Source: a virus. Taken from it: DNA of 61,782 bases. Below are positions 23,764 to 58,844 of this stretch, piece after piece. The stretch's first letter is position 1. Each line of letters starts with the position of its first letter. Below the pieces are notes generated by a model that ran no database searches, was not told the DNA's origin, and saw nothing but the letters and a program-made list of their open reading frames with translations. The DNA lies in the IMG/VR virus record IMGVR_UViG_3300027896_002037, positions 1-61,782 of that record, one strand, 5' to 3'. The position numbers and the translations under genes are program-made.

Positions 23764-26700
23764 ATGTTATTAAAATTTCTAGATGTAGAACATTTCGTTG
23801 TGACCAATGCATTAGTTCCGGTTACATCAACGGACATCTACACAAAGGATGGTAACTTTGATGAAAATGGACTATTCTCAGACGTGATCTTTGGAAAAGA
23901 TTCTGACGTTAGAAAAAAGTCGTTTTCATATATTAATTTAAATTGTGAAATTGTTCATCCAACCGCATTAGATATTATAAATCGATTAGATAGGAAATTA
24001 ATAGATTTTATATTTACATACGGAACATATCTTCTAGATGATGAAGGAAGTTTATACGAAGATCCAAATGGATTATCCGGAGTTGAGAATTTTAAAAAGA
24101 TCTTTCAAAAAATTAAATTTAGAGGAGGAAGCTCCGAAAGAGAATCCTTCATTAAATTAATACAAGAATCTTATAATTCTGGAGTATTATTTATTAGGAA
24201 GATACTAGTAATACCACCCGAATTTAGACCAGTTTTTAAAGATCCTGCAACGGGAGAAGAAATACGAGATGCACTTAATGATTTTTATATTAAAATATTA
24301 AGACACTCAAATACAATGAGATCTGCATCGGGCGGCGGAATATTTTATGATATACTAAATGCTAATATGCAGAAAAGTGTTAATGATTTTGATGATTATA
24401 TCAAAGCAAAACTCGGTCATAAACACGGACTGATCCGTGAGCAAATACTTGGTAAGCGTGTTGATTTTTCAGCAAGAACCGTAATAGTGAACGGACCAAC
24501 TTTAAAACCACACGAGGCTGGTATTCCAATTGGACGAGCAGTCTCAATATTCGAGCCTTTTATATTAAACGTAATACTTAAGAAAAAAGCGAATGTTGAT
24601 AATGATCTACTAATTCAGAAAATTAAAGAATTTGTTCATCAAGAATTTTCAATAGATGCTGTAAAAAAATTATTACTTTCTATAAAAAATAATGATACTG
24701 TTCCAAGCGATCTTTTTGAAATGATGTTTATAGTTGTATCAAAAGCTATGGAAGGAAGATTGGTTCTATTAAAACGAGATCCCGCACTAAGACCAGAATC
24801 GGTAAGGGCATTCGTTCCAATATTAACAAGAAATGATGTTATATCAATTAGTAATCTTATAACTTCTGGATTTAATGCTGATTTTGATGGGGACATGATG
24901 GCTGTTATACATCCGCTATCAAATGAAGCACAAGAAGATGCTAAAAAAATGATACGTGTACAATCCGCTGATAATATGTCAGCTATGACGATTAAATTAG
25001 CTAAAGATACGGCAATTGGGATATATATCCTTACAAAGGATTATCCTATAAACAAAAAGCCAATTCAAATTACCGAGGAGCTATTAGAGAAATCTACCGA
25101 TCCAACTACTCCAGTTATATATAAAACTAAAGTTACAACTATGGGCCGAGCAATTTTTAATTCCTGCTTACCAGAGGGATTTAGATTTATAGAAACACCA
25201 ATCAAAAGTTCAGATATGGATAAGTTACTAGATGAAATCTATCGTAAGTATGCAGCTAAAGCTGTGTCTAATGCAGCATATAAGTTAATGTTATATGCCT
25301 ATAAATTTGTAACTATTGCATCTCCATCACTGACTATAGATAATTTTATAATGCCAGATTCAATAATAAAAGAAAAAGAAAAATTAGAATTAAGTCAATC
25401 TGTAGATGAAAATATAAAATTATTAGATAAATTGCAGAAAATGATGGAAGCACATTTCTCAGGAACACCGCTACACGACCTTATAGAATCTGGTGCGTCT
25501 AAGGGTTGGGGACAGCCATTTCAGATCTTTGTATCAAAGGGATTTGTTACAGACGTTAAAGGAAATTTATTACCACCGATTAAGGGATCATATGCTGAGG
25601 GGCTGAGTGCAGAAGAACACTTTAATGCTTCATATGGATCTAGAAAAGGAATTGTAGATAGAGTTATCAGTACATCAGATACGGGATATACATCTCGCCA
25701 ATTAGTATATCTTTTAAATGGTGTAGAATTAGATCCACATAATGAGGATTGTAAGACTAAAAGAACTCTTCCTGTTAGATTAAACAAAACTATTATCGGG
25801 AGATTAGAGGGAAGATATATTGTTGATAAGGGAACCTCAAAAGAATTTATAAAATCCAATTATAAAGAAGGTGATGTTATTAATTTAAGAAGTCCGATAT
25901 ACTGTACAGCTAAAAATAATAAAATTTGTTTAACATGTTATGGTAAAAAAGTTGCCGCCAGAGTTAAAACTCCATATATAGGAGTTTTAGCAGCTCAATT
26001 GATTGGTGAAGAGGGTACTCAGGCGACAATGAGGAACTTCCATTGTTTTCAAGGACTTACGTTAATCGTTACGGATAAATATGGGATAATATCTTTTAAA
26101 GATCTTTGGGATAGAACTGAGACAAGCATTAGTGAATTGGATGGATGTGAAGAAAAACTAATCGATTCATGTTCTGTGTTAGATAAAGATGGATGGACAA
26201 AAATCTTAAATATAAAAAGACATATAAAAAATCCAAACTCTAAAATAATGTTTATGAGAATTCGTGGTGGACAATTTTTAATATGTCAGGATAATCATCC
26301 ACACATGCTTTCTAATTTAAACGATTCAGATCAACATTTTAAAGAAACTATTTTAACAGAAAATAGTAATTATGAAAATTATAAAGCAGTTACAGATAAT
26401 CAGATCGCAAAATATTTTGGTAAAACTGACGATGAATTAATGGAAACAATATGTGAAATTTTAAATTCTGAAAGATTAGAAATAACTAGAAACATCGTTT
26501 CATTTAACTCAGATTCTTTAGAAAACATACAGAAATTAATGATATTATTATGTTACTTTAACATATCGGTTGGAGTTCGTCCAATAATGGAAAATTATAA
26601 AAATAAGCAATTATTCAATTTATCTTTTGCTCCAACATTAAGTCAGAAGTCTTATTTTAACACATGCAATAAGATGAAATCATTTCGATATTTACCAGAT

Positions 26701-26907
26701 CAATTTATTAATAGACATACAGATGTTATATCTGTATATAAGGAACTTCCATTTTATAACGAAGATTTTTTATATGACATATGTACAGAGTCATCAACGC
26801 TTATTGCAAATGGCATGTGGGAACATAATTCTGGAGGAGCTGTTAAGTTAGAAAATAAAGATATTCTTAAAGATTTAGTTGAGAATGGCAAAGGATTGGA
26901 GAAATAA
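23764..26907 (+). CDS. Phage RNA polymerase beta' N-terminal part (set 1), intein-containing
   Basis: 1047 aa precursor; 785 aa after removal of a 262-aa intein (residues 761-1022). The catalytic loop NADFDGD, with three Asp for Mg2+, is at residues 371-377 (FNADFDGDMM). Conserved neighbours include LGKRVDFSARTVIV and HEAGIPIGRA. Near the end, GEEGTQATMRNFH is the first half of the trigger loop (bacterial GEPGTQLTMRTFH). The zinc ribbon found at the beta' N-terminus of bacteria and of set 2 is missing. The chain stops 25 residues after the spliced trigger-loop His, and the next gene supplies the C-terminal part. Set 1 follows the tail genes, so it may be the virion polymerase. Confidence 0.9.
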   Translation: MLLKFLDVEHFVVTNALVPVTSTDIYTKDGNFDENGLFSDVIFGKDSDVRKKSFSYINLNCEIVHPTALDIINRLDRKLIDFIFTYGTYLLDDEGSLYEDPNGLSGVENFKKIFQKIKFRGGSSERESFIKLIQESYNSGVLFIRKILVIPPEFRPVFKDPATGEEIRDALNDFYIKILRHSNTMRSASGGGIFYDILNANMQKSVNDFDDYIKAKLGHKHGLIREQILGKRVDFSARTVIVNGPTLKPHEAGIPIGRAVSIFEPFILNVILKKKANVDNDLLIQKIKEFVHQEFSIDAVKKLLLSIKNNDTVPSDLFEMMFIVVSKAMEGRLVLLKRDPALRPESVRAFVPILTRNDVISISNLITSGFNADFDGDMMAVIHPLSNEAQEDAKKMIRVQSADNMSAMTIKLAKDTAIGIYILTKDYPINKKPIQITEELLEKSTDPTTPVIYKTKVTTMGRAIFNSCLPEGFRFIETPIKSSDMDKLLDEIYRKYAAKAVSNAAYKLMLYAYKFVTIASPSLTIDNFIMPDSIIKEKEKLELSQSVDENIKLLDKLQKMMEAHFSGTPLHDLIESGASKGWGQPFQIFVSKGFVTDVKGNLLPPIKGSYAEGLSAEEHFNASYGSRKGIVDRVISTSDTGYTSRQLVYLLNGVELDPHNEDCKTKRTLPVRLNKTIIGRLEGRYIVDKGTSKEFIKSNYKEGDVINLRSPIYCTAKNNKICLTCYGKKVAARVKTPYIGVLAAQLIGEEGTQATMRNFHCFQGLTLIVTDKYGIISFKDLWDRTETSISELDGCEEKLIDSCSVLDKDGWTKILNIKRHIKNPNSKIMFMRIRGGQFLICQDNHPHMLSNLNDSDQHFKETILTENSNYENYKAVTDNQIAKYFGKTDDELMETICEILNSERLEITRNIVSFNSDSLENIQKLMILLCYFNISVGVRPIMENYKNKQLFNLSFAPTLSQKSYFNTCNKMKSFRYLPDQFINRHTDVISVYKELPFYNEDFLYDICTESSTLIANGMWEHNSGGAVKLENKDILKDLVENGKGLEK
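26044..26829 (+). other. Intein in RNAP beta' trigger loop (262 aa)
   Basis: Begins with Cys (CFQGLTLIVTDKYGI) directly after extein MRNFH and ends GMWEHN before extein SGGAVKLE. DNHPHML is the block-B-like segment. A middle region (SDSLENIQKLMILLCYFNIS) looks like a decayed LAGLIDADG endonuclease. The last extein residue before the intein is the His equivalent to the catalytic trigger-loop His of bacterial beta', so polymerase cannot work until splicing. Confidence 0.85.
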
Positions 26908-47237: not shown

Positions 47238-47549
47238 ATGTACGAGGTTAAAGTATTTGTAGTATCTGGTTTTGAAAAAATTGTGGCGAAACTGAAAAGT
47301 GATAATGGTAATGTAATTGAAGTTGAAGATCCTTTTATATTAAAAGAAATGATGACCCAACAGGGGCCTCAGGCGATTATTCTGCCATTCCAATATGCTA
47401 AACGGAACCAAACTCTTAAATTAGTAAAGACTTCATTAATTTTTGAACCGTTTGATCCGGAAGAAAATCTTTATGCAGCATATATCGAAAACGTGTCTGG
47501 ATTAGACCTCTCATCCGTGAAAGGCAATCAGTCTAAGCTTATTATTTAA
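47238..47549 (+). CDS. Small beta-barrel, LSm-like protein (tentative)
   Basis: 103 aa. Strand pattern VVSGFEKIVAKLKSDNGNVIEVEDPFILKEMM, then GPQAIILPFQYAKRNQTLKL, resembles small phage LSm/SH3-like barrels seen beside gp46/gp47 genes in T4-like phages. No enzyme motif. Followed by a strong terminator, closing the recombination operon. Confidence 0.4.
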   Translation: MYEVKVFVVSGFEKIVAKLKSDNGNVIEVEDPFILKEMMTQQGPQAIILPFQYAKRNQTLKLVKTSLIFEPFDPEENLYAAYIENVSGLDLSSVKGNQSKLII

Positions 47550-47557
47550 TTTTATAT

Positions 47558-47586
47558 AATCCCCGTCCTTAGAGACGGGGATTTTC
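47558..47586 (+). terminator. Intrinsic terminator closing the recombination operon
   Basis: AATCCCCGTC (47558-47567) pairs perfectly with GACGGGGATT (47574-47583) around a CTTAGA loop; a short TTTTC follows. Confidence 0.85.
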
Positions 47587-47644
47587 TAATGAACTGTTAA
47601 AATTGACAGTTTTTCACCACAACCTCAAAACTAAAGGATTGATC

Positions 47645-49963
47645 ATGTCAAATAAAATCGAAGAAGGAATTTTTATAAATAATTCTTATATTTATCCAAT
47701 AGCAATTCATACTAATGATAATGTTCTTGAACGAGTTGCTTTGGGCGAACCATATATTGATTCCGACATTAGATTAAGCAACGCGTTAAGTAATAATATA
47801 ATCTTACCCCCCAATTGCAGGATAGTGAGCACACGCGATAATGGTGGATATACATTTCTTTTAGAATTGCCACCGGCGATTAGAACTATCGGAATATCAG
47901 AGAGTTTGCTATCTAGCGAATACAATACATTCATTACAGAGTTTGGCGGAACATATGAAGAAATAGAAAAAATTATGGCAACTAAGTGCCTAAGCCAGAC
48001 TGAAAATGTATATTATAAGATTAGATTACAATTTCCCTGGACGATTTTCATAATTACTGTAGACCGGGGAATAGACCGGGGAGTAGACCGAGGAGTAGAC
48101 CCGGGGAACGATATCTATGAGATAAACTCTATGAAAGTATATTTTTCAAAAATTTCCATATCAACCCCAGAAGATAAAATTTTTATTCCACCATTAACAA
48201 ATATAAATTCAGATGGACGACTATGTATACCTCGCACACACGCATCATCGAGTATATGCGATTTAGTTTCTGACCAAGTAGATTTGTTTTGGGGTTCAAT
48301 ATTTAATAGAGACCTCAGTGGACACAAACTAGCATATCCAAGAACTAGTAATCTCTATAATCTTTTAAAATGGTCATTGGAATCGTTAAAAGATCCATTA
48401 TTTATCTTTAAAGAACAATTTTGCAGAGAAACATCTTTGGTAGAATCTGGGGTATTCGATGGACGCCGCCAAGACCTACCGAGTACTCTATATGCAAGGA
48501 TTGCTCATCATAGATCTAATAAGTATATATCTTCTATAACTACAGATGATGGAAAAACATATTATAGAGGAGATATCATCACTTTAAATGATAAATATTA
48601 TCGTATAGCTTATTTCCTAGGTGATGGCCGTGTAGAATTACAAGAAGAAACTGATAAAAGTGTGCGTATAGAAGAAAATATTAAAATTATTCATCAAGAA
48701 TATATAACAAAAAATGAGATAGTTAAAATTGAAGATCCTATAGAAATAGATGGAAAAGTACTAAAAACATCTCAGTTAATCAAGATTAACTTAAATGGTA
48801 ACTGCGCATTGTATATAATAGAAGATATATTTTTTGATAACCGAATCGGTTTATATAAATTTAAAGTAAGTGGTCTCTCTAAGTGGATTGTTCTATCAGA
48901 GTATATATTAAAAAATACAGTCATAATTAATAAGATCGATGTTGGAGACACTATTGCTGTAAAATCTAGAATAGACCGGGGTATAATGCATATCCTAATT
49001 GGAAAAGTTACAGAAACAGACCGGCTTAGAGTAACATTATGTGGAACAGAGACTTTCCATATTGATGATACTCGGATCGAGTCCATAGACAAATATGATG
49101 ATATTGAATCTTTAGAATTAGAATCTTCTATTGAGGAAATAACTCCCTTTAAATGGCTAGATACTGTATATTTTCCGAACGGATTGGCATTGAGATATAT
49201 CATATCTAATGATATATTATGTGATATATCAGATCTACGATATAAAAAATCCACAGATAAGATTAATATACCTTCACCATTTGCATATAAAGATTTAGAA
49301 ACTAATAAGATAATTACGTATTCAATAGGATCATTTGTTGTTTTTCCAGAGATAAATAGGAAGCAGTTCTCAGCTGGTGAAATAATAGGGTTTGAGCATG
49401 GTTCATCAAATAGTACAATATTACTAAAAACTGTTGATGGTGACATACACCGAATCAAATTTGCATATAGACTAGGTGATAACTCTTTAAAACTAAATCT
49501 TGGAATAGCTAATTCTATGACCTCTTTTAAAATAGATTTTAATAATACCTTATCTATTGGAGATAAAATTCGTCCGAAAATAGCGAATATTCCACATATG
49601 AAAAAATCGGAAGTTCTGGAAATTCGAGCAATGGTTCACACTAAAAATTGTCCAATGGAAGTATATTTATCAAATGGTAGATGTGTAGAGTTAGCAGATC
49701 TTTTAAAATATTTTGAGATATATTCAAAAGATGATGCTAAATTCAATTTAAAGAAAAATCAATTAAAGTTTAAAGAACATCCGGTCATACCGGGCGATAT
49801 TGCTATATTTGATAATAATTTGTGTCATTCCATAATAACAAAGGTATACCCAAAAAGGTATGCATTGGAAAATTCAGATATTAGGTATAATTATAATATA
49901 ATGGTAAAACCGGTTCCAACAAAGATACTCGATATTTCAGTTGAAGCGGTTAATCCTAATTAG
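47645..49963 (+). CDS. Large E2-like protein of the ubiquitin-like cassette, 772 aa
   Basis: ATG 47645 follows AAGGA with usable spacing; the longer in-frame frame upstream has no site. Residues about 100-230 look like a ubiquitin-conjugating (E2) fold: YYKIRLQFPWTIFIITV as the central sheet, then IFIPPLTNINSDGRLCIPRTH, in which GxLC with a preceding Pro-rich turn mirrors the 'HPN-x-x-x-G-x-VC' line around the E2 catalytic Cys; here Cys 194. Helix VDLFWGSIFN follows. The rest holds about five SH3-like barrels that each start with GD-(I/T/K)I or similar (GDIITLNDKYYRIAYFLGDG; GDTIAVKSRI; GDKIRPKIAN; GDIAIFDNN), likely for substrate or target binding. A 12-bp tandem repeat (48059-48106) falls in the E2 part. 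Downstream JAMM, E1 and Ub-like genes support the reading. The E2 call is from motif and context, not a search. Confidence 0.5.
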   Translation: MSNKIEEGIFINNSYIYPIAIHTNDNVLERVALGEPYIDSDIRLSNALSNNIILPPNCRIVSTRDNGGYTFLLELPPAIRTIGISESLLSSEYNTFITEFGGTYEEIEKIMATKCLSQTENVYYKIRLQFPWTIFIITVDRGIDRGVDRGVDPGNDIYEINSMKVYFSKISISTPEDKIFIPPLTNINSDGRLCIPRTHASSSICDLVSDQVDLFWGSIFNRDLSGHKLAYPRTSNLYNLLKWSLESLKDPLFIFKEQFCRETSLVESGVFDGRRQDLPSTLYARIAHHRSNKYISSITTDDGKTYYRGDIITLNDKYYRIAYFLGDGRVELQEETDKSVRIEENIKIIHQEYITKNEIVKIEDPIEIDGKVLKTSQLIKINLNGNCALYIIEDIFFDNRIGLYKFKVSGLSKWIVLSEYILKNTVIINKIDVGDTIAVKSRIDRGIMHILIGKVTETDRLRVTLCGTETFHIDDTRIESIDKYDDIESLELESSIEEITPFKWLDTVYFPNGLALRYIISNDILCDISDLRYKKSTDKINIPSPFAYKDLETNKIITYSIGSFVVFPEINRKQFSAGEIIGFEHGSSNSTILLKTVDGDIHRIKFAYRLGDNSLKLNLGIANSMTSFKIDFNNTLSIGDKIRPKIANIPHMKKSEVLEIRAMVHTKNCPMEVYLSNGRCVELADLLKYFEIYSKDDAKFNLKKNQLKFKEHPVIPGDIAIFDNNLCHSIITKVYPKRYALENSDIRYNYNIMVKPVPTKILDISVEAVNPN
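48059..48106 (+). repeat. 12-bp tandem repeat (4 units)
   Basis: Four copies of a (G/A)TAGACCGGGGA-like unit code for VDRG, IDRG, VDRG and VDPG. It is G+C-rich against an AT-rich gene and could vary in copy number in frame. Confidence 0.9.
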
Positions 49964-49982
49964 ATTGTTCTATACCCTTTAG

Positions 49983-50026
49983 GTCAAGGGATGTCACATA
50001 ATAATTCAATGATGGCATCCCTTGAC
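49983..50026 (+). terminator. Long hairpin between E2-like and JAMM genes
   Basis: A 14-bp stem (49983-49996 / 50013-50026, one G-U pair) with a 16-nt loop. There is only CAAAATTTC after it, so it may be a partial terminator or an RNA-processing hairpin that sets the ratio of E2-like protein to the three smaller ones. Confidence 0.6.
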
Positions 50027-50052
50027 AAAATTTCTTGAAAAAGGAGCATTTA

Positions 50053-50973
50053 ATGTTTAAAATTGTCATAAACGATGGAAATACGACACTTCCGATAGAT
50101 AATATTTATTATCTTATTGGAAAAGATGGAATTTATATCCATAAAAAATCAGATATATTTGAGGCATGTGTAAAGGTTAAACATATTTCATTTTTAGAAC
50201 CAGTTAAATCATATGCTAAGTTAAATATTCCAAAGATACCTGAACCTTTAACAAAGCAAATGTATAGTTTCTTTTCAGAGGTATATGCTAGATTTCAATC
50301 TGAAGCGGCTATCATGATATTTTATAATAATACCACTAAAGAACATTCTTTAAAAGTTCCACAACAGGTTATATCATCAGCACACCTCGAATGTTCATAT
50401 AATATAAGCGTGCCAGGATTTCTATCAATAGGAACATGTCATAGTCATGCTGGATTTGGTGCGTTTCACTCCCCAACAGATATTAAAGATGAGAATGATT
50501 TTGACGGTTTGCATATGACATTTGGAAATTTAGATCAAGAAAATATCTCAATATCTATGGAGGTTGTCTCCAATGGATCTAGATTTAAATGTTTACCAGA
50601 AGATTATCTAGATGGTATACAGAAAATTGGTAACCTTTATAAAATCGAACTATCTGAATTTCCCGAAGAGTGGATGGCATGTGTTGAGAAGAAAGTTCAT
50701 GTGGTGCCAGATAAGTTTGATTATTTAAAAGATTTTGCGTTTGGAGATTATTTCTATCCGACGCTTCCAAAGAAATTACCAAAGTTAACGGGATCCAATA
50801 ATATTCATTGTAATAACTGCCAATTCAATAGGGTCATTGAATGTCACAAAGATGATATTGACAATGCTTCGAGAATTCAGGAATTGGATTATTATGACGA
50901 CATGGAAGCTATAATTAAAGCACATCAATATTATGATATATTGAAAGAAGACGAAGATGAGATATTGTATTAA
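50053..50973 (+). CDS. JAMM/MPN metallopeptidase of the ubiquitin-like cassette
   Basis: 306 aa from ATG 50053, with AAGGAG 6 nt upstream; a TTG further up lies before this site. The motif CHSHAGFGAFHSPTDIKDE is a perfect H-x-H-x7-S-x2-D JAMM signature (H130, H132, S140, D143), with a likely partner Glu in FQSEAAIMI. JAMM proteins cleave after the last Gly of a ubiquitin-like tail, either to mature it or to remove it from targets. The C-terminus carries a Cys pair and Cys-x7-Cys (HCNNCQ, VIECH) that may hold zinc. Overlaps the E1 gene by 17 nt; the Ub-like gene is two genes down. Confidence 0.8.
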   Translation: MFKIVINDGNTTLPIDNIYYLIGKDGIYIHKKSDIFEACVKVKHISFLEPVKSYAKLNIPKIPEPLTKQMYSFFSEVYARFQSEAAIMIFYNNTTKEHSLKVPQQVISSAHLECSYNISVPGFLSIGTCHSHAGFGAFHSPTDIKDENDFDGLHMTFGNLDQENISISMEVVSNGSRFKCLPEDYLDGIQKIGNLYKIELSEFPEEWMACVEKKVHVVPDKFDYLKDFAFGDYFYPTLPKKLPKLTGSNNIHCNNCQFNRVIECHKDDIDNASRIQELDYYDDMEAIIKAHQYYDILKEDEDEILY

Positions 50974-51640
50974 GATCATTGGTTTGGGCGGCATAGGTAG
51001 TTCGCTGTCAAATATTTTAAGTAGATTTGTTAATTATGATATAGAAAATGAATATATTTTCCATCTTATAGATGGTAAGGAACTTCAACCCAGAAAATTA
51101 GAACGTCAAGAATTTGAAATGGAATCTGGTAATAAGGCCGAACTTAAAAAAATGGAATTGGAGAGAAAATTTCCAAATATCCAATATGTAGAATGCCCAT
51201 TCTATTTAAATGATAGAAATGTTCATAATATTATAGAGGAAGGAGATATAATATTTCTATGCGTCGATAATCATAAATCAAGAAATTTAGCAAGTCGTTT
51301 TGTAGATACATTGGATAATAGTGTTCTTATATCGGCTGGTAATGATCTGACAGATGGTAATGCACAATTATATATTCGACAAGATGGAATTAAAATAACT
51401 CCATCTTTAACCGATTATCATCCAGAAATATCAAATTTTACAGATAAATTACCAGAAGAATTATCATGTGAAGAATTAGCATTTTCTTCTCCACAGATTT
51501 ACTTAGCTAATCTGCAGGCTGCTGTATTGATGTCTGAGATTTTTAGGATTTATAAGTTAAATAAAGAAGTTATTTCTGAATGTTATTTTGATATTGATAC
51601 AATTAATGTGAGATCAGTTACACGAAAACCAAAAAAATAA
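50957..51640 (+). CDS. ThiF/E1-like activating enzyme of the ubiquitin-like cassette
   Basis: 227 aa. Rossmann GxGGxG (residues 9-14, GLGGIGSS) binds ATP, with conserved HLIDGKELQPRKLERQEF (Asp at the strand end, then an Arg/Asn-like pair), and DIIFLCVDNHKSR, the CVDN line found in minimal E1s. Cys171 in LSCEELAFSSPQ, followed by an ANLQAA helix, is at the position of the catalytic Cys of PRTRC-type E1s. The enzyme would adenylate the C-terminal Gly of the Ub-like protein and carry it as a thioester. Much shorter than eukaryotic E1. Coupled to the JAMM gene by overlap. Confidence 0.75.
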   Translation: MRYCIKIIGLGGIGSSLSNILSRFVNYDIENEYIFHLIDGKELQPRKLERQEFEMESGNKAELKKMELERKFPNIQYVECPFYLNDRNVHNIIEEGDIIFLCVDNHKSRNLASRFVDTLDNSVLISAGNDLTDGNAQLYIRQDGIKITPSLTDYHPEISNFTDKLPEELSCEELAFSSPQIYLANLQAAVLMSEIFRIYKLNKEVISECYFDIDTINVRSVTRKPKK

Positions 51641-51653
51641 AGGAGAATATTTT

Positions 51654-52253
51654 ATGAAGAATTTTTATTTAAGTGAGTTGGAAGAAATGGACACAATTGA
51701 GCTTAAGGATATCATTGATCAGTTAACTGATTTTCCCAATCATCCTTCCTACGAGGACGATGCCACAGATGACCAGTTAATTCGTCTTGTAATGTACCTT
51801 CAGACGGCCATTGCAAATGGCGAAGATGTTAAGGTCATCGATGATGATGACGATGATGAGTATGATGATGATTGTGATGATGATAACGATGATGACGATT
51901 ATGATGATGATGATGATGACGAGTGCGATTGTGATGGTTGTAATGGTTGTAATACTGAAGAATCTACTACTGGTGGAATCTCATCTGCAGTAGTCACAGT
52001 TGCTACCGCTATTAATACCGAAACCGAAGAAGCCGACATTACAGTCTATGTGCAGTGTGGTGCTAATTCTGGAAACTACGCTCTGGTTGGAAAGTCCATT
52101 AAGAATGCAATGGTATTTATCGGTGAAGTTATGAATATTGGAGAACTTCGCTACCCCATGGTTAATGGTGTAGAGGTAAGTCAGGATTATATTCTTAAGA
52201 ATGGTGATAGTCTTGAATTTATTAAAATGGCTGGTGAAAAAGGACTGGCCTAA
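51654..52253 (+). CDS. Ubiquitin-like beta-grasp protein with Asp-rich arm, 199 aa
   Basis: Residues about 110-199 fit a beta-grasp: strand DITVYVQCG, helix SIKNAMVFIGEVMNI, strands RYPMVNGVEVSQDYIL and the line NGDSLEFIKMAGEKGLA. The 'vNG...L-x-GD-x-LEF-x-x-AGxKG' ending is the one used by small prokaryotic Ub-like proteins, with two extra residues (LA) after the last Gly (G197), so the JAMM peptidase would have to expose the Gly. Before it, residues 63-94 are almost entirely Asp (Glu, Tyr, Cys between), followed by CDCDGCNGCN, a possible metal cluster. The N-terminal 50 residues are a separate helical piece. AAAGGAG precedes ATG. Strong terminator downstream. Confidence 0.65.
   Translation: MKNFYLSELEEMDTIELKDIIDQLTDFPNHPSYEDDATDDQLIRLVMYLQTAIANGEDVKVIDDDDDDEYDDDCDDDNDDDDYDDDDDDECDCDGCNGCNTEESTTGGISSAVVTVATAINTETEEADITVYVQCGANSGNYALVGKSIKNAMVFIGEVMNIGELRYPMVNGVEVSQDYILKNGDSLEFIKMAGEKGLA
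51840..51935 (+). repeat. GAT/GAC trinucleotide repeat (poly-Asp)
   Basis: A run of GAT and GAC triplets with few interruptions codes for an acidic arm of about 30 residues. Prone to in-frame length change. Confidence 0.9.
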
Positions 52254-52284
52254 TTTAAAATAACCGTTAGCTTAGATTGATTGA

Positions 52285-52316
52285 AGAAATGGGGTTAATT
52301 CCCCATTTCTTTTTTT
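52285..52316 (+). terminator. Intrinsic terminator closing the Ub-like cassette
   Basis: AGAAATGGGG (52285-52294) pairs perfectly with CCCCATTTCT (52301-52310) around a TTAATT loop, then six T. Confidence 0.92.
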
Positions 52317-52363: not shown

Positions 52364-52405
52364 AATTTAAAATATAATATAAGAATTTTGAAGGAGAATA
52401 TAAAT

Positions 52406-52675
52406 ATGCATCATATGATTGATAAAGCTACCGATATTTTAAAAAAATATAAGGAAAATGATCTGGTAGTAGTAACTTTTATAAAAAAAGATGGAACTCG
52501 CAGAGTTATGAAATCAACTTTAAAAATGAATTTAATACCCAATGATAAAAAACCAAAACAATTAGATCTTACTAAAATTCTTACTAAGATTAAACAGGGA
52601 ATTCTAAGTGTTTTTGATGTTGATGTGATGGAATGGCGATCTATTCCAATGGATAGAATAGAAAAGATAGAATAG
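52406..52675 (+). CDS. Small SH3-like beta-barrel phage protein, 89 aa
   Basis: ATG 52406 follows AAGGAGAATATAAAT; an upstream TTG (52388) lies before the site. Pattern VVVTFIKKDGTRRVMKSTLKM, then LSVFDVDVMEWRSIPMDRIEKIE, matches a common small phage protein annotated as an SH3-type beta-barrel (strand 'FxKxDGxxR', then 'VxDxxxxxWRS'). Role unknown. Confidence 0.55.
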   Translation: MHHMIDKATDILKKYKENDLVVVTFIKKDGTRRVMKSTLKMNLIPNDKKPKQLDLTKILTKIKQGILSVFDVDVMEWRSIPMDRIEKIE

Positions 52676-53005: not shown

Positions 53006-55729
53006 ATGCCAAAATTAGCAGATATTAATAAATTTTGCGAAGATTTGCCAGAGATCAAGACTTCACATACTATAAGTAGAAAAAAATTCCATCCACATGG
53101 ATTGTTTTCTGAACAGATTTTTGGTCCAGTAAAAAGTTTTACTTGTAAATGTAAGATAACTAATAGAAGTGGGAAGCGATGCCCAACATGTGGAATTGAA
53201 TATGTGTCATCCAAAGAACGGCGAAGAAGATTTGCTAAGATAATTTTGCCAGTTCCTGTCATAAATCCACTTTTTTATGATTTATTACATGAAAAATTTA
53301 CATCTGAATTTATTAAAAAATTAGATTTTTTCATGAAGGAAAAATACGCCTGTTTATATGTTCCATATTCCTCGAATGAAGACGTATTCATTACTGAGAA
53401 GAATGAAGATGAAAAATATCCATCTGATAGATTCAGAAGGTATACCCGACATGAGGCTATAAAAGAATTTGTTAAATGGGGAGCTGCGACACTTAATGAT
53501 GCGTACGGGAAATACATATTAGCAAATATTGATAAATTAATTTTGACAGAGATTCCGGTTATTCCACCAGATCTTAGACCGGCAATGCCAGCATCTGCCC
53601 ACAGTGATAGAGTAAAGGGTGATATCATTAATGATAATTATTCGAATATCTTAACTAAAAAAGAAGCAATGGAAAAGACAACATTGGAGATACTCCGAAA
53701 TAATGACTTATATTTTACATATTCTCGGCTTATCCAAAATGAAGTTAATATAATATATAAATATATTACGTCTAAGATGTCAAAAAAAGAAGGATTGATT
53801 AGGGGAAATATTCTTGGAAAACGTATGGACTTTTCGGGGCGTGCAGTTATTGTTCCAGACCCCACTTTAAGTATAGATCAATGCTATCTGCCATACTATA
53901 TGCTTTTAGAGTTATTTAAAATCCAAATTGCACATCAATTAATAGAAGCTGGAAAATTTAAGATTTTTAATAATGCTCTAGATTATATTTCAGAGTGTAT
54001 AGAATTAAACGACTATGCGTTATATGATATAGTAGAAAAAGTAACTAAAAATGAGGTGTGCTTACTCAATAGACAACCATCTCTTCACAGACTTGGATTA
54101 TTAGGGTTTGAGATTAAAGTGTGTAAAGGATTTACTATTGGAATCTATCCACTGATATGCGCCGGATATAATGCGGATTTTGATGGAGATCAGATGGCAG
54201 TATATCTTCCTATCTCAGAAGAAGCCAAGCAAGAAGTTCGTGAAAAGTTTTTTGCATCTAAAAATTTATATAGTCCTACAAATGCATCCTTAACGACAAT
54301 ACCATCTCAGGATATTGTTCTTGGTATATATTTATTAACTAATAATATGATTCCGGAATTAGCGGAAAATGTTGAATGTAAGGGGCATATGATAAGCGGT
54401 GGTAGAGCTATTTTTAACAATATATTGCCGAAAGATTTTGGAATAGTAGATGACGTAATCCGAAAAAAATTGCTCTATTCTATATTAGCAGAAGTTGCAC
54501 AGAAATACGATTCACATGTTGTAACAGAAATATTGGATAATATTAAAAATGTTGGATTTTATTATGCAACATATTTTGGAGTAACTCTATCATTGGATAA
54601 TTTTAAAATAGAGGGAATAGACAAATTTACCTCAGATATATATGATATGGAAACATCAAAAGAACAGTTATCTGCAATTACCAGTAAAGAGACTGAAGCT
54701 TATTTAAAAAATCACTTTAAATATTCATATCTGATAGATTCTGGTGCACGCGGAACATGGGATCAGGCCAGACAAATTGTAATGACTCGTGGATATATTT
54801 CTAACTTCAATGGACAAATTCAGGAAACTCCTATTAAGAGCAGTCTCGTAACTGGACTTTCACCCGAAGAGTTCTTTACATCAACATATGGATCTCGCAA
54901 AGGCCTATTAGATACCGCAATTAACACGGGAGTCTCTGGTTATTTATTCAGAAAATTAATTTTTGCAGCATGTAATATGGAAAAAAGTTTAGACTTAGAT
55001 GATTGCGGAACAACAGAATATTTAGACATCAAAATAGATACTGAAAAAATTGCAAAAATGTTAGAATATAGATGGTATCTTGATGAAGTTGATAATATCG
55101 AAAAAATGGTAACATCTGAAAATTATAAGAATTTGATTGGAAAGACTCTTAAATTTAGAAGTCCTGTCTACTGCAAATCAGATCAAATTTGTCATAAATG
55201 CTACGGCGGTTTATATAAACTGTTACATAGTAGATATATCGGAATCATTGCAGCACAGGGAATTGGAGAAATTGGTACGCAGTTAGTATTAAGATCATTC
55301 CATACATCAGGTGTGGCATCGACAAAGATAGAAACAATTGATTTAATGAAACAGGAAGATATCGTTGGTGATCTTACCACCGTAAATAAATTACTACATG
55401 GAAAAAGTAAGGATCTAGAAGGAGTAGCTCCATCGGAATTAGCACGACAATTATTTAAGATATATAACCAAACCAGTGAGATACACCACGTACACATGGA
55501 AGTTATTGTAGCACAAAAGATGTGGGCTGGAAGATATAAGTGGAGATTGCATCCTAAGCGGGATAATATTCCATACACATGGCATAGTATTCAGACAATA
55601 CCATCAATGGAAGGGTGGTTATTAGGATTTGGTTTTGGAAATCCTAAAAAGAATCTTTTATTGGGAATGTTGACAAAAAGTATGTATTCTGGTATATTGG
55701 ATAAAATTTTATTGGGCAAAAAACTTTAA
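53006..55729 (+). CDS. Phage RNA polymerase beta' subunit (set 2), unsplit
   Basis: 907 aa. N-terminal line HTISRKKFHPHGLFSEQIFGPVKSF and zinc ribbon CKCKITNRSGKRCPTCG match bacterial beta'. Catalytic NADFDGD is at residues 389-395 (YNADFDGDQM), with LGKRMDFSGRAVIV and LLNRQPSLHRLG before it, and the trigger-loop start GEIGTQLVLRSFHTSGVAS without an intein. It is in one piece but short: much of the bacterial C-terminus beyond the trigger loop is reduced. Set 2 keeps the zinc ribbon that set 1 lost. It may be the non-virion polymerase because a host-type promoter lies ahead, but that is inference. Confidence 0.92.
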   Translation: MPKLADINKFCEDLPEIKTSHTISRKKFHPHGLFSEQIFGPVKSFTCKCKITNRSGKRCPTCGIEYVSSKERRRRFAKIILPVPVINPLFYDLLHEKFTSEFIKKLDFFMKEKYACLYVPYSSNEDVFITEKNEDEKYPSDRFRRYTRHEAIKEFVKWGAATLNDAYGKYILANIDKLILTEIPVIPPDLRPAMPASAHSDRVKGDIINDNYSNILTKKEAMEKTTLEILRNNDLYFTYSRLIQNEVNIIYKYITSKMSKKEGLIRGNILGKRMDFSGRAVIVPDPTLSIDQCYLPYYMLLELFKIQIAHQLIEAGKFKIFNNALDYISECIELNDYALYDIVEKVTKNEVCLLNRQPSLHRLGLLGFEIKVCKGFTIGIYPLICAGYNADFDGDQMAVYLPISEEAKQEVREKFFASKNLYSPTNASLTTIPSQDIVLGIYLLTNNMIPELAENVECKGHMISGGRAIFNNILPKDFGIVDDVIRKKLLYSILAEVAQKYDSHVVTEILDNIKNVGFYYATYFGVTLSLDNFKIEGIDKFTSDIYDMETSKEQLSAITSKETEAYLKNHFKYSYLIDSGARGTWDQARQIVMTRGYISNFNGQIQETPIKSSLVTGLSPEEFFTSTYGSRKGLLDTAINTGVSGYLFRKLIFAACNMEKSLDLDDCGTTEYLDIKIDTEKIAKMLEYRWYLDEVDNIEKMVTSENYKNLIGKTLKFRSPVYCKSDQICHKCYGGLYKLLHSRYIGIIAAQGIGEIGTQLVLRSFHTSGVASTKIETIDLMKQEDIVGDLTTVNKLLHGKSKDLEGVAPSELARQLFKIYNQTSEIHHVHMEVIVAQKMWAGRYKWRLHPKRDNIPYTWHSIQTIPSMEGWLLGFGFGNPKKNLLLGMLTKSMYSGILDKILLGKKL

Positions 55730-55745
55730 TACTTAGGAGTGTGCA

Positions 55746-58700
55746 GTGAAGAATATCATAAATCCAAATTTTAAAATGAAAGATGGTCATAATCTTTTTA
55801 AAATTAGGGAAGAGGATTATAATAATATTATTCCAAATGTAAGAATGATTTTAGAACCAGTTTTAAAAGAAGGATTTCAGATATTAGAACTTGGTCTAAA
55901 AGATTCTTATGCTAGTGAGGTTGATAGAAATCTATATCAATTACTTGTAATAACCCTTCAAAAAGGTGAACATGTTGTTGATCTAACTTTAAAGATTCCA
56001 AAGATTGTCGATGGAAATTTTGTTATTATTGGCGGAAAGAGAAAGATTCCGCTTTTTCAATTATTTGATCTACCATTTGTAACAACCTCAGATGGTACAT
56101 TAAAAATAAGAACTAATATAGCTACATTTAATATATCAAGAACAAAGAATTCTCCATATGTAGTTATGAAAGTTCTCGGTTCAGATATACCATTATCATT
56201 ATTAATCTTATCTAGATATATAGATGTCAATGTTATAATTGATTTTTTCGATCTAAATAATATTGAGTTTCCACTTGATGATGAAGATTTTGATTATAGT
56301 ACTCTAACTCTATATGATGCCCTCAGATATGATCTTAAGAATTATATCGAGGATTACGGTGGAAAGAGTAAAGAATTTTATGCCAATATGATAAATGGAT
56401 TCTATACAAAATCCGCATATGCAAAGGGAGAGAATATTCTCTATGCACTGGATATTGTAACAAAGGTTGATCCGATTTCTGCTAGATTTTTTAAAAGCGA
56501 TCATATTATAGATGAAGCTGTTAATTTTATATATAGAGTTTCGTCCGGAGAATTTATAGATGATACCAATCTATTAAATAAGCGTATGCGCTGTATGGAA
56601 TATATGGTCCTGAAGATAATATCAAAAGCTGCATTCGATTTGTGCATGCTAAGTAAGGGATCGAGTATAAAATTAAAAATAAATAGTAAGCAGATTATAT
56701 CAGAGGTCAGTGTATCTGATGTTGTACAATTCGATTCGTCAATCAATCCAATTGAAAACTTAACATCAATTTTACGATGTACTTATCTTGGAAAAAGCAC
56801 TGGTGGGTTCGATAGATCCAGTATTCCAACTCGACTGCGTGATATTAATCCATCTATGTTTGGTAGAATTTGTCCCGTAGAAACTCCAGATAGGGAAAAT
56901 TGTGGAGTAGTACAATCTTTAATACCAAATGTTAACTTCGATCAAAATTATAAGTTTACCGAAGAAATTTGTGCCAAGCAACCAGTATCATTAGCGGTAT
57001 CGATGGTTCCTTTTTTAGAGAAAGACGATCAAACCCGACTACAAATGGCATCCTCACAAATGAGGCAGGCGATAAATTTAAAGAAGATTGAACAACCATT
57101 AATTCAAAGTGGTTCAGAAGGATTATATTCAGACTATACATATTTTATTAAGAAAGCTAAGAAAAATGGAGAAGTTGTATACGCAGATAATGACCTTTTG
57201 ATGATATCATATGATGATCATACATACGATATTTTTGATATTGGAATTAGAAATACATATACTGAAAATATCGATATACCCAAAGTATATGTATCGGTTG
57301 GAGATAAGGTAAAGGCTGGAGATATCCTATCAGAAAGCAACTATTCAGATGGTGGTAAAATTCAAATAGGTAGAAATCTTTTAACTGTTATAATGCCATA
57401 CTATGGATATAACTATGAGGATTCTATAGTTATCTCGGATAAATTAGTAAATGAAGATATTTTAACGTCTATGCATCATGTTAATTTGGGATTTATTCTA
57501 TCGCCCGATAAAGTACTATTGAGCTTAGATAATGATAGATATAGACCTTTACCAAATCCACAAACATATTGTAATGATAAAGATTCTCCTTTTCAAACAC
57601 CACGAAAAATTGAATTGATCAAGCATGGGGAACCATATGCCATTATAAAAGAATTACAAGATGATCCCCTTATGTTTACCAATAATTTCGGTGAGTCGAT
57701 AAAACTCTTGGCAAAAAAAGATATCATGATAACCTCAGTAGAATTATATCCGAATACATATAATCACTCAGTGCCGGAATTCAAAGATTGGGTTGAGAAG
57801 AAATTTCAAACTCAGTTAGATCATCAAAATAAGATTCATGAAATTATTAAACAGTATGTACCAAAAGAAGGAATTCAACGATATATTAAAGATAGGAGTT
57901 TGGATAGGTTTTCATTAGCTGGAAAATTTAAAATAAAAGATGATCCTATAAAAGGTATGTACATCTCAATTAAGGGTGTATATTCTAGAAAAATTGATCA
58001 GGGTGATAAAATTGGAAACAGGCATGGAAATAAAGGAGTTATTTGTAAAATCGTTCCTCATGATAAAATGCCACAACTTCCAGATGGAAGACATGCAGAA
58101 ATAATCATTAATCCATTAGGAATAATTTCAAGAATGAACATTGGGCAGACCTTTGAATTACATTTGGCAATGTCCTTAAATGATTTGAAAAACAATTTAT
58201 TTAAAATGTTAGACAAACGAAGCTCACAGAAAGATATGAAAAAATATATACTTGATTATATAAAAATTTTAGACAATACAAATGAGCGATGGTATACAGA
58301 ACAAGTTGAAGAAATGTTTACGGGTTATAGTACCCATATAGATAATGAATTCATTAGTAAACTTTATCTATTGGCACCACCATTTGAATCATCGTCATAT
58401 GAACAATTACAGTTAGCTTGTCAGTATACAAATACTGCACTGGAATATAAGATATATGATCCTAGTATAGAGAAATATATTATTAATCCCGAAGGGGTTG
58501 GATTTATGTATTTCTTTAGAATGATACATATAGCAGAAGAAAAGATTTCTGCTAGAGGTATCGGATCATATTCTAAAAAAACACTTCAACCACCGGGGGG
58601 CCGTAGAAACCACGGCGGTCAACGATGTGGAGAAATGGAAACTTTTTGCTTTGCAGCACATGATGGTATTGAAAATTTAACAGAAATTTTAACTACGAAA

Positions 58701-58844
58701 TCAGACTGCATGGGAAAGAAAAATAAATATCTAAAAGAGGCACTTGCTTCAGAATATTTAAAAGAAGTCTCTGAAGACGATATGATACCAGAAAGTGTTA
58801 AGCTGATGGAGGCATATCTAAAAACTGTTGGTATAGATTTATAA
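55746..58844 (+). CDS. Phage RNA polymerase beta subunit (set 2), unsplit
   Basis: 1032 aa, shorter than set 1 beta (1396). Landmarks: RDINPSMFGRICPVETPDRENCGVVQSL, MPYYGYNYEDSIVISD, DQGDKIGNRHGNKGVI, NPLGIISRMNIGQTFE, and GGQRCGEMETFCF near the C-terminus, all standard for beta. GTG start at 55746. It follows beta' by 16 nt. The two sets share little obvious sequence outside the motifs, so they are old paralogues rather than a recent duplication. Confidence 0.92.
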   Translation: MKNIINPNFKMKDGHNLFKIREEDYNNIIPNVRMILEPVLKEGFQILELGLKDSYASEVDRNLYQLLVITLQKGEHVVDLTLKIPKIVDGNFVIIGGKRKIPLFQLFDLPFVTTSDGTLKIRTNIATFNISRTKNSPYVVMKVLGSDIPLSLLILSRYIDVNVIIDFFDLNNIEFPLDDEDFDYSTLTLYDALRYDLKNYIEDYGGKSKEFYANMINGFYTKSAYAKGENILYALDIVTKVDPISARFFKSDHIIDEAVNFIYRVSSGEFIDDTNLLNKRMRCMEYMVLKIISKAAFDLCMLSKGSSIKLKINSKQIISEVSVSDVVQFDSSINPIENLTSILRCTYLGKSTGGFDRSSIPTRLRDINPSMFGRICPVETPDRENCGVVQSLIPNVNFDQNYKFTEEICAKQPVSLAVSMVPFLEKDDQTRLQMASSQMRQAINLKKIEQPLIQSGSEGLYSDYTYFIKKAKKNGEVVYADNDLLMISYDDHTYDIFDIGIRNTYTENIDIPKVYVSVGDKVKAGDILSESNYSDGGKIQIGRNLLTVIMPYYGYNYEDSIVISDKLVNEDILTSMHHVNLGFILSPDKVLLSLDNDRYRPLPNPQTYCNDKDSPFQTPRKIELIKHGEPYAIIKELQDDPLMFTNNFGESIKLLAKKDIMITSVELYPNTYNHSVPEFKDWVEKKFQTQLDHQNKIHEIIKQYVPKEGIQRYIKDRSLDRFSLAGKFKIKDDPIKGMYISIKGVYSRKIDQGDKIGNRHGNKGVICKIVPHDKMPQLPDGRHAEIIINPLGIISRMNIGQTFELHLAMSLNDLKNNLFKMLDKRSSQKDMKKYILDYIKILDNTNERWYTEQVEEMFTGYSTHIDNEFISKLYLLAPPFESSSYEQLQLACQYTNTALEYKIYDPSIEKYIINPEGVGFMYFFRMIHIAEEKISARGIGSYSKKTLQPPGGRRNHGGQRCGEMETFCFAAHDGIENLTEILTTKSDCMGKKNKYLKEALASEYLKEVSEDDMIPESVKLMEAYLKTVGIDL

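Follow-up and report, generated by a model that had tools for sequence, protein, structure and literature searches.

Complete pathways of E1, E2, ubiquitin-like protein and deconjugase are known from eukaryotes and some archaea and, in bacteria, from plasmids and defence systems. The described loci closest to the one analysed here are the PRTRC regions of plasmids, which are operon type 6d of Iyer et al. (2006) and were predicted there to be ubiquitin-like (PMC1779556). Here we describe a cassette of this kind in a 61,782-base linear virus record of IMG/VR (IMGVR_UViG_3300027896_002037), analysed over its whole length and called the window below. Four genes at 47645-52253, all on the plus strand, encode in this order an E2-like protein (47645-49963, 772 aa from an ATG, with a TTG at 47603 as a possible alternative in-frame start), a PRTRC_A-like JAMM/JAB metallopeptidase (50053-50973, 306 aa), an E1-like adenylating enzyme of the ThiF family (50957-51640, 227 aa, its gene overlapping the JAMM gene by 17 nt) and a ubiquitin-like beta-grasp modifier (51654-52253, 199 aa, C-terminus ..AGEKG-LA). 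An earlier note made from the letters alone had proposed this row of four consecutive genes, and profiles, conservation and synteny bear it out. We consider it probable (about 0.72) that the four genes form a working phage pathway for conjugating and deconjugating a ubiquitin-like protein.

Plasmid PRTRC regions were compared with the phage protein families by hhalign. Each phage family matched one PRTRC member: the E2-like family PRTRC_B (E = 1e-5), the JAMM family PRTRC_A (E = 2.7e-18 over 185 columns), the E1 family PRTRC_ThiF (E = 2.8e-24 over 249 columns) and the modifier PRTRC_C (E = 0.0075, probability 2%, a weak match), while none of the 16 off-diagonal pairs scored better than 0.069. 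Profiles, conservation and synteny uphold the comparison with PRTRC made earlier. Among the window's own proteins the JAMM protein matched PRTRC_A (TIGR03735) at E = 1.5e-7, below the equivalog cut-off, and the E1 matched PRTRC_ThiF (TIGR03736) at E = 7e-4, also below cut-off; TIGR03738 (PRTRC_C) gave no match to the modifier, and its controls were silent too. Direct sequence evidence comes from the KG tail that the modifier has in common with PRTRC_C, as 7 of 9 PRTRC_C proteins end in KG or in KG plus a tail. Both have an E2_D-type E2, a JAB protein with an N-terminal domain and a ThiF-type E1, and both appear to have a small beta-grasp protein with a conserved C-terminal Gly. Unlike PRTRC, the cassette is carried by phage rather than plasmid, has the order E2-JAB-E1-Ubl with the modifier last and, by our reading of the sequences, has Asn221 of the E2 where PRTRC_B has a downstream His. 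On these profiles it reads as PRTRC-like and not as a strict member, since PRTRC ParB and PRTRC_E (TIGR03734, TIGR03741) had no match in the window; six other phage records gave weak matches only to these two models, below cut-off. New with respect to PRTRC are the core position in large phages, the fusion of the modifier to a Rho_N/SAP-like domain (the plasmid relatives have the short modifier only), the fusion of the E2 to beta-barrels, poly-modifier genes and, in many cases, an additional E1-like gene.

When the window's own E2, JAMM and E1 served as queries, no close relatives came up (E2 and JAMM in phage records, E1 and JAMM in IMG/VR). Relatives were gathered with the neighbouring RNA polymerase (RNAP) beta' as bait, which yielded 80 related contigs, and presence or absence was counted in the 62 that extend 7 kb or more beyond beta' on its upstream side. 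All four genes were found in 54 of these and none in 8, with no intermediate state. The combination that the earlier note had named as telling against it, JAMM and ThiF genes without the other two, was therefore not encountered in these contigs, and the four-gene order that it had suggested seeking in other huge phages recurs in related contigs of this RNAP clade. The 56 loci that hold the complete set all agree in gene order and strand; the genes are nearly contiguous there (median gaps of -8, -7.5 and 24.5 nt) and in the clade lie just upstream of RNAP beta'. Proteins of the relatives are only about 16-52% identical to those of the window, yet the catalytic residues are near-invariant; the same genes, order and strand in 56 loci, together with essentially invariant catalytic residues, place the cassette far beyond chance. 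Of 10 records tested for terminase, 8 gave a match, as expected for tailed phages, and six of these matches exceeded the family cut-off. Widening the search by means of the E1 family brought up more cassettes, both in contigs of metagenome-assembled genomes (MAGs) and in other phage contigs, up to 459 kb long, that lack the RNAP neighbours, all four genes being present in 24 of 47 MAG loci (phage, plasmid or chromosome not distinguished) and in 10 of 10 other phage loci. Adjoining JAMM and E1 genes were also seen in two cultured phages, Bacillus phage vB_BauM_KLEB27-3 (L214) and Vibrio phage D69 (L215), and a 266-kb Sporosarcina plasmid (L216); KLEB27-3 has an E2-like gene as well, and the modifier was not detected in these three. 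Two candidates were set aside: an E1 match in Acinetobacter 'phage' MD-2021a has bacterial genes as neighbours (fabG, acsA, kdpA) and belongs to an ordinary MoeB, and Bacillus phage AR9 gave a structural match with no JAMM or E1 match.

The full JAMM motif claimed earlier is present, as HSHAGFGAFHSPTD at aa 130-143 plus Glu84, and its residues E84, H130, H132, S140 and D143 are kept in 57 of 57 deduplicated relatives. The window protein matches Prok-JAB at E = 0.0015, below cut-off; a PDB profile search with the family gave weak Rpn11-type matches only, the HSH..S..D of the profile aligning onto Rpn11 with a weak E-value. The E1 reads GLGGIG (GxGGxG) and carries the candidate Cys171. Its match to ThiF (E = 3e-10) is above cut-off, and GxGGxG, D39, R50, Q51, D104 and C171 are kept in 56 of 56 deduplicated relatives, in agreement with the minimal ThiF/E1 first proposed. 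The E1 profile aligned with MoeB, R50-Q51 falling on the MoeB RQ pair. In many relatives the modifier gene and the RNAP beta' gene are separated by a second gene of the ThiF family, coding for ~290 aa (for example L022:8332-9192, L009:8277-9152, L030:8355-9215). ThiF was matched by 25 of 26 of these proteins, whose C-terminus is conserved (..PETGAA) with a nearly invariant last residue, as if it were itself functional; L010 has this gene without the cassette.

In the E2-like protein the predicted E2 domain (Prok-E2_D/PRTRC_B-like, about aa 30-262, 47732-48430) contains the line ..NINSDGRLC(194).., in which Asn186 lies eight residues ahead of Cys194; each of these two residues is kept in 52 of 53 deduplicated relatives. 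The window protein matched Prok-E2_D at E = 0.0012 in a match that spans Cys194 and scores 19.1 bits, below the Pfam cut-off of 25, and 27 of 50 family members matched it at E<=0.01 (best 1.2e-6); the family's profile found nothing in the PDB. The N-x7-C spacing is that of human UBE2D2 (N77, C85), and hhalign superposes the active sites of the two, with a weak E-value of 0.0017; the usual HPN histidine is absent from the E2. This spacing is not universal among E2-like proteins: outside the RNAP clade the strict P..N-x7-C pattern was found in 11 of 44, and a looser spacing in 25 of 44. In an AlphaFold2 (AF2) model the predicted local distance difference test score (pLDDT) is mostly 75-95 over aa 51-260, lower near 111-120 and 141-150, and by our reading the order of strands and helices is compatible with a ubiquitin-conjugating (UBC) fold. 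Within the domain the window has a short inserted repeat, DRGIDRGVDRGVDPG (48062-48106, aa about 140-154), missing from the aligned relatives shown. The SH3-like barrels to which the E2 part was said to be fused appear in the AF2 model, at moderate confidence, as tandem SH3/Tudor-like beta-barrels at about aa 297-720 (48533-49804); the best Foldseek matches to the PDB are the tandem Tudor domains of SETDB1, 53BP1 and UHRF1 (E ~0.006-0.05, probability up to 0.96). Elsewhere, L027:878-5679 holds two tandem E2-like genes, and L203, L206 and L211 have two or three near one cassette.

For the modifier, AF2 and Foldseek predict the beta-grasp C-terminal domain (51987-52250) that had been proposed, and K196 and G197 are kept in 58 of 58 deduplicated relatives. 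Among the best Foldseek matches were TGS domains, di-ubiquitin, MoaD, SAMP2 and SUMO, in each case at E > 0.1, which probably reflects the disorder of a large part of the chain. The window protein matched ThiS at E = 0.043, and among 56 family members 17 matched TGS and 9 ThiS. The poly-Asp arm of the earlier note is real in the window, where translation places it at 51834-51929 with low pLDDT; the aligned relatives do not show it, their arm being instead a Rho_N/SAP-like domain. An N-terminal Rho_N domain was found in 39 of 56 relatives, and Rho chains were matched in the PDB profile search. The window's own N-terminal region (51654-51818, modelled helices at 6-11, 14-24 and 39-54) appears to be a degenerate counterpart of this domain, with Y, D and D at the conserved G33, K36 and K39. 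After KG the tail is LA in the window; over the 58 proteins it is absent in 34, a Cys in 16 and otherwise 1 to 67 residues long, one tail being left unresolved by the pattern. The longest, of 67 residues (L033:7143-7772), resembles by eye a homing-endonuclease-associated repeat. Two genes encode head-to-tail modifiers joined through ..GRKG (three units in L208:4927-5559, two in L192:8707-9666). Like eukaryotic polyubiquitin genes, these join modifiers at the C-terminal Gly, and they call for a processing peptidase as polyubiquitin does. The JAMM protein is the candidate; the phage system differs from polyubiquitin in its KG junction and in a presumed cutter that is a JAMM rather than a cysteine peptidase.

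With genes, motifs, conservation, synteny and family relationships as observations, each catalytic step can be proposed from family knowledge. JAMM would trim the modifier precursor after Gly197, removing Leu-Ala in the window protein. The E1 would adenylate Gly197, hold the modifier as a thioester on Cys171 and hand it to Cys194 of the E2, which would transfer it to an amine on the target, perhaps steered by the C-terminal barrels; JAMM could then take it off again. In most relatives the Rho_N/SAP-like domain, of a nucleic-acid-binding type, may allow the tag to bring its target to nucleic acid. Target and benefit are speculative. The likeliest target class is a phage transcription or DNA-processing complex because the site lies beside the phage RNAP genes; the only clues to the target (Rho_N-like domain, barrels, nearby RNAP genes) would point to nucleoprotein complexes. 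A more specific version, possible rather than probable, is a SUMO-like pathway of huge phages in which a Rho_N/SAP-Ubl tag is put on phage transcription or DNA-processing proteins, the E2 reads nucleoprotein through its Tudor/SH3-like barrels and JAMM matures poly-modifiers. Conjugates would not show the diGly-like remnant on Lys that the earlier note proposed to look for, since the tail is K-G. Of such a tail trypsin would leave a single Gly on the target lysine (+57.0215 Da), equal in mass to iodoacetamide alkylation, so diGly proteomics would miss these conjugates; the KG tail shows how they could escape notice.

Several results weigh against a working conjugation pathway. Foldseek of the whole E2 model did not rank the UBC fold, as the C-terminal barrels dominate the matches (a viral-library search with the full model was likewise swamped by them). 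The E2 assignment depends on distant profiles, Prok-E2_D and PRTRC_B around Cys194. The earlier claim of an E2-like protein with Cys194 is borne out as regards profile matches and conservation, and the UBC fold did not emerge from the whole-model search. For the PRTRC type the literature searched yielded no function assigned by experiment and no biochemical test of any member. The eight relatives without the cassette upstream of beta' include the closest, L002, which means that not every one of them needs it. One could read the locus as a sulfur-carrier system, in which a ThiS/MoaD-like beta-grasp thiocarboxylate serves cofactor, amino-acid or tRNA modification, with the E2-like protein acting only as a scaffold: bacterial ThiF/MoeB proteins mostly serve sulfur transfer, and the profile matches of the E1 are to ThiF/MoeB and those of the modifier to ThiS/TGS. 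We judge this improbable, given the near-invariant Cys (52/53) in a domain that matches Prok-E2_D, a tail of KG and not GG, the poly-modifier fusions and family scans in which no sulfurtransferase or cofactor gene was recognised adjoining the cassette. Least probable of the readings considered is conjugation to an acceptor other than protein lysine (a nucleic acid, a nucleotide or, in the manner of ATG8, a lipid); the nucleic-acid-binding type of the modifier domain, the barrel-rich E2 and its missing HPN histidine would fit, but nothing speaks positively for such an acceptor and the plasmid relatives have just the short modifier.

The same chemistry might be turned against competitors or host defence, with superinfecting virions or defence proteins tagged as Bil tags phage. 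Similar enzymes serve Bil and CBASS in defence against phage, related cassettes occur on plasmids and in other phages, and patchy loss, including a presence/absence site between window and L002, would fit such a device. That most of the clade retains the cassette at a single site next to RNAP genes is more like a core function, however, and matches of the E1 to the PADLOC E1-E2 models are distant only (2.6e-6). We find this use doubtful and rank it, like the sulfur carrier, below the conjugation pathway; the tagging of host or virion proteins raised in the earlier note stays speculation.

A separate doubt concerns the window copy itself, which is divergent: catalytic residues are intact and several near-invariant neighbours are changed (R168S and G196P in the E2; D41K, N47K and P161F in the E1; the Rho_N-like residues of the modifier). 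These changes and the absence of the second E1-like gene from the window count against activity of this copy, which could be weakened. That it is an inactive, decaying remnant, as its long branch would also allow, we regard as unlikely, since four frames are open and E84/H130/H132/S140/D143, R50/D104/C171, N186/C194 and KG are all intact. The RNAP beta' tree groups the window with L002 (support 0.995); the cassette tree groups it with L008 (support just 0.59). Window and L002 have in common the flanking genes for a helicase, SbcD, SbcC, a 103-aa protein, WYL_2, beta' and beta, arranged in this order in both. Trees and flanks, including the place of WYL_2, suggest either that L002 lost the cassette or that the window gained it separately. 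The window cassette sits between the 103-aa gene (47238-47549) and the WYL_2 gene (52388-52675), where L002 has a short ORF only (L002:8769-9481), a natural presence/absence site; in most relatives WYL_2 lies upstream of the E2 gene, in the window downstream of the modifier.

Other known systems resemble the phage conjugation cassette in part. Bil (BilABCD), Bub and CBASS Cap2/Cap3 combine the same activities (Ubl or target, E1, E2, JAMM), and differ in being bacterial defence or candidate defence systems. The CEHH motif of the BilB active site (PMC11354881) was not seen after Cys194 in the aligned phage E2 proteins. The tail-assembly proteins TAPI (Ub-like) and TAPK (JAB) of lambda and T1 are also a phage-borne Ub-like domain and JAB; no E1 or E2 is described there, and they belong to a tail gene cluster, not an RNAP neighbourhood. 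Neither a jumbo-phage overview nor a huge-phage survey mentions a Ub-like conjugation cassette, and we found no literature joining PRTRC, Ub-like proteins and phage in a search that left subscription papers and preprints outside, so that a prior description is possible. The cassette looks like a conserved part of the genomes of a large phage clade; if so, viruses of bacteria would employ reversible tagging of proteins for purposes of their own. The PRTRC family, so far unexplained, gains a second independent setting, in which the extra domains hint at targets.

Finally, we looked at the surroundings of the four genes. The cassette had been described as lying between two terminators. Downstream, a stem-loop with a 12-pair stem and a T-run (52283-52312, plus strand) was called by scan. 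Upstream, a terminator-like stem-loop can be read in the sequence (47561-47587, plus strand; CCCCGTC-CTTAGA-GACGGGG followed by ATTTTCT), with a 7-bp GC-rich stem at 47561-47580 seen by eye only, as the consensus terminator scan did not call it. The window also encodes a UvsX-like recombinase, DNA topoisomerase II subunits, an SbcC/SbcD-like nuclease, DNA ligase and ribonucleotide reductase, and it holds two separate multisubunit RNAP gene sets, at 23764-26907 and 53006-58844.

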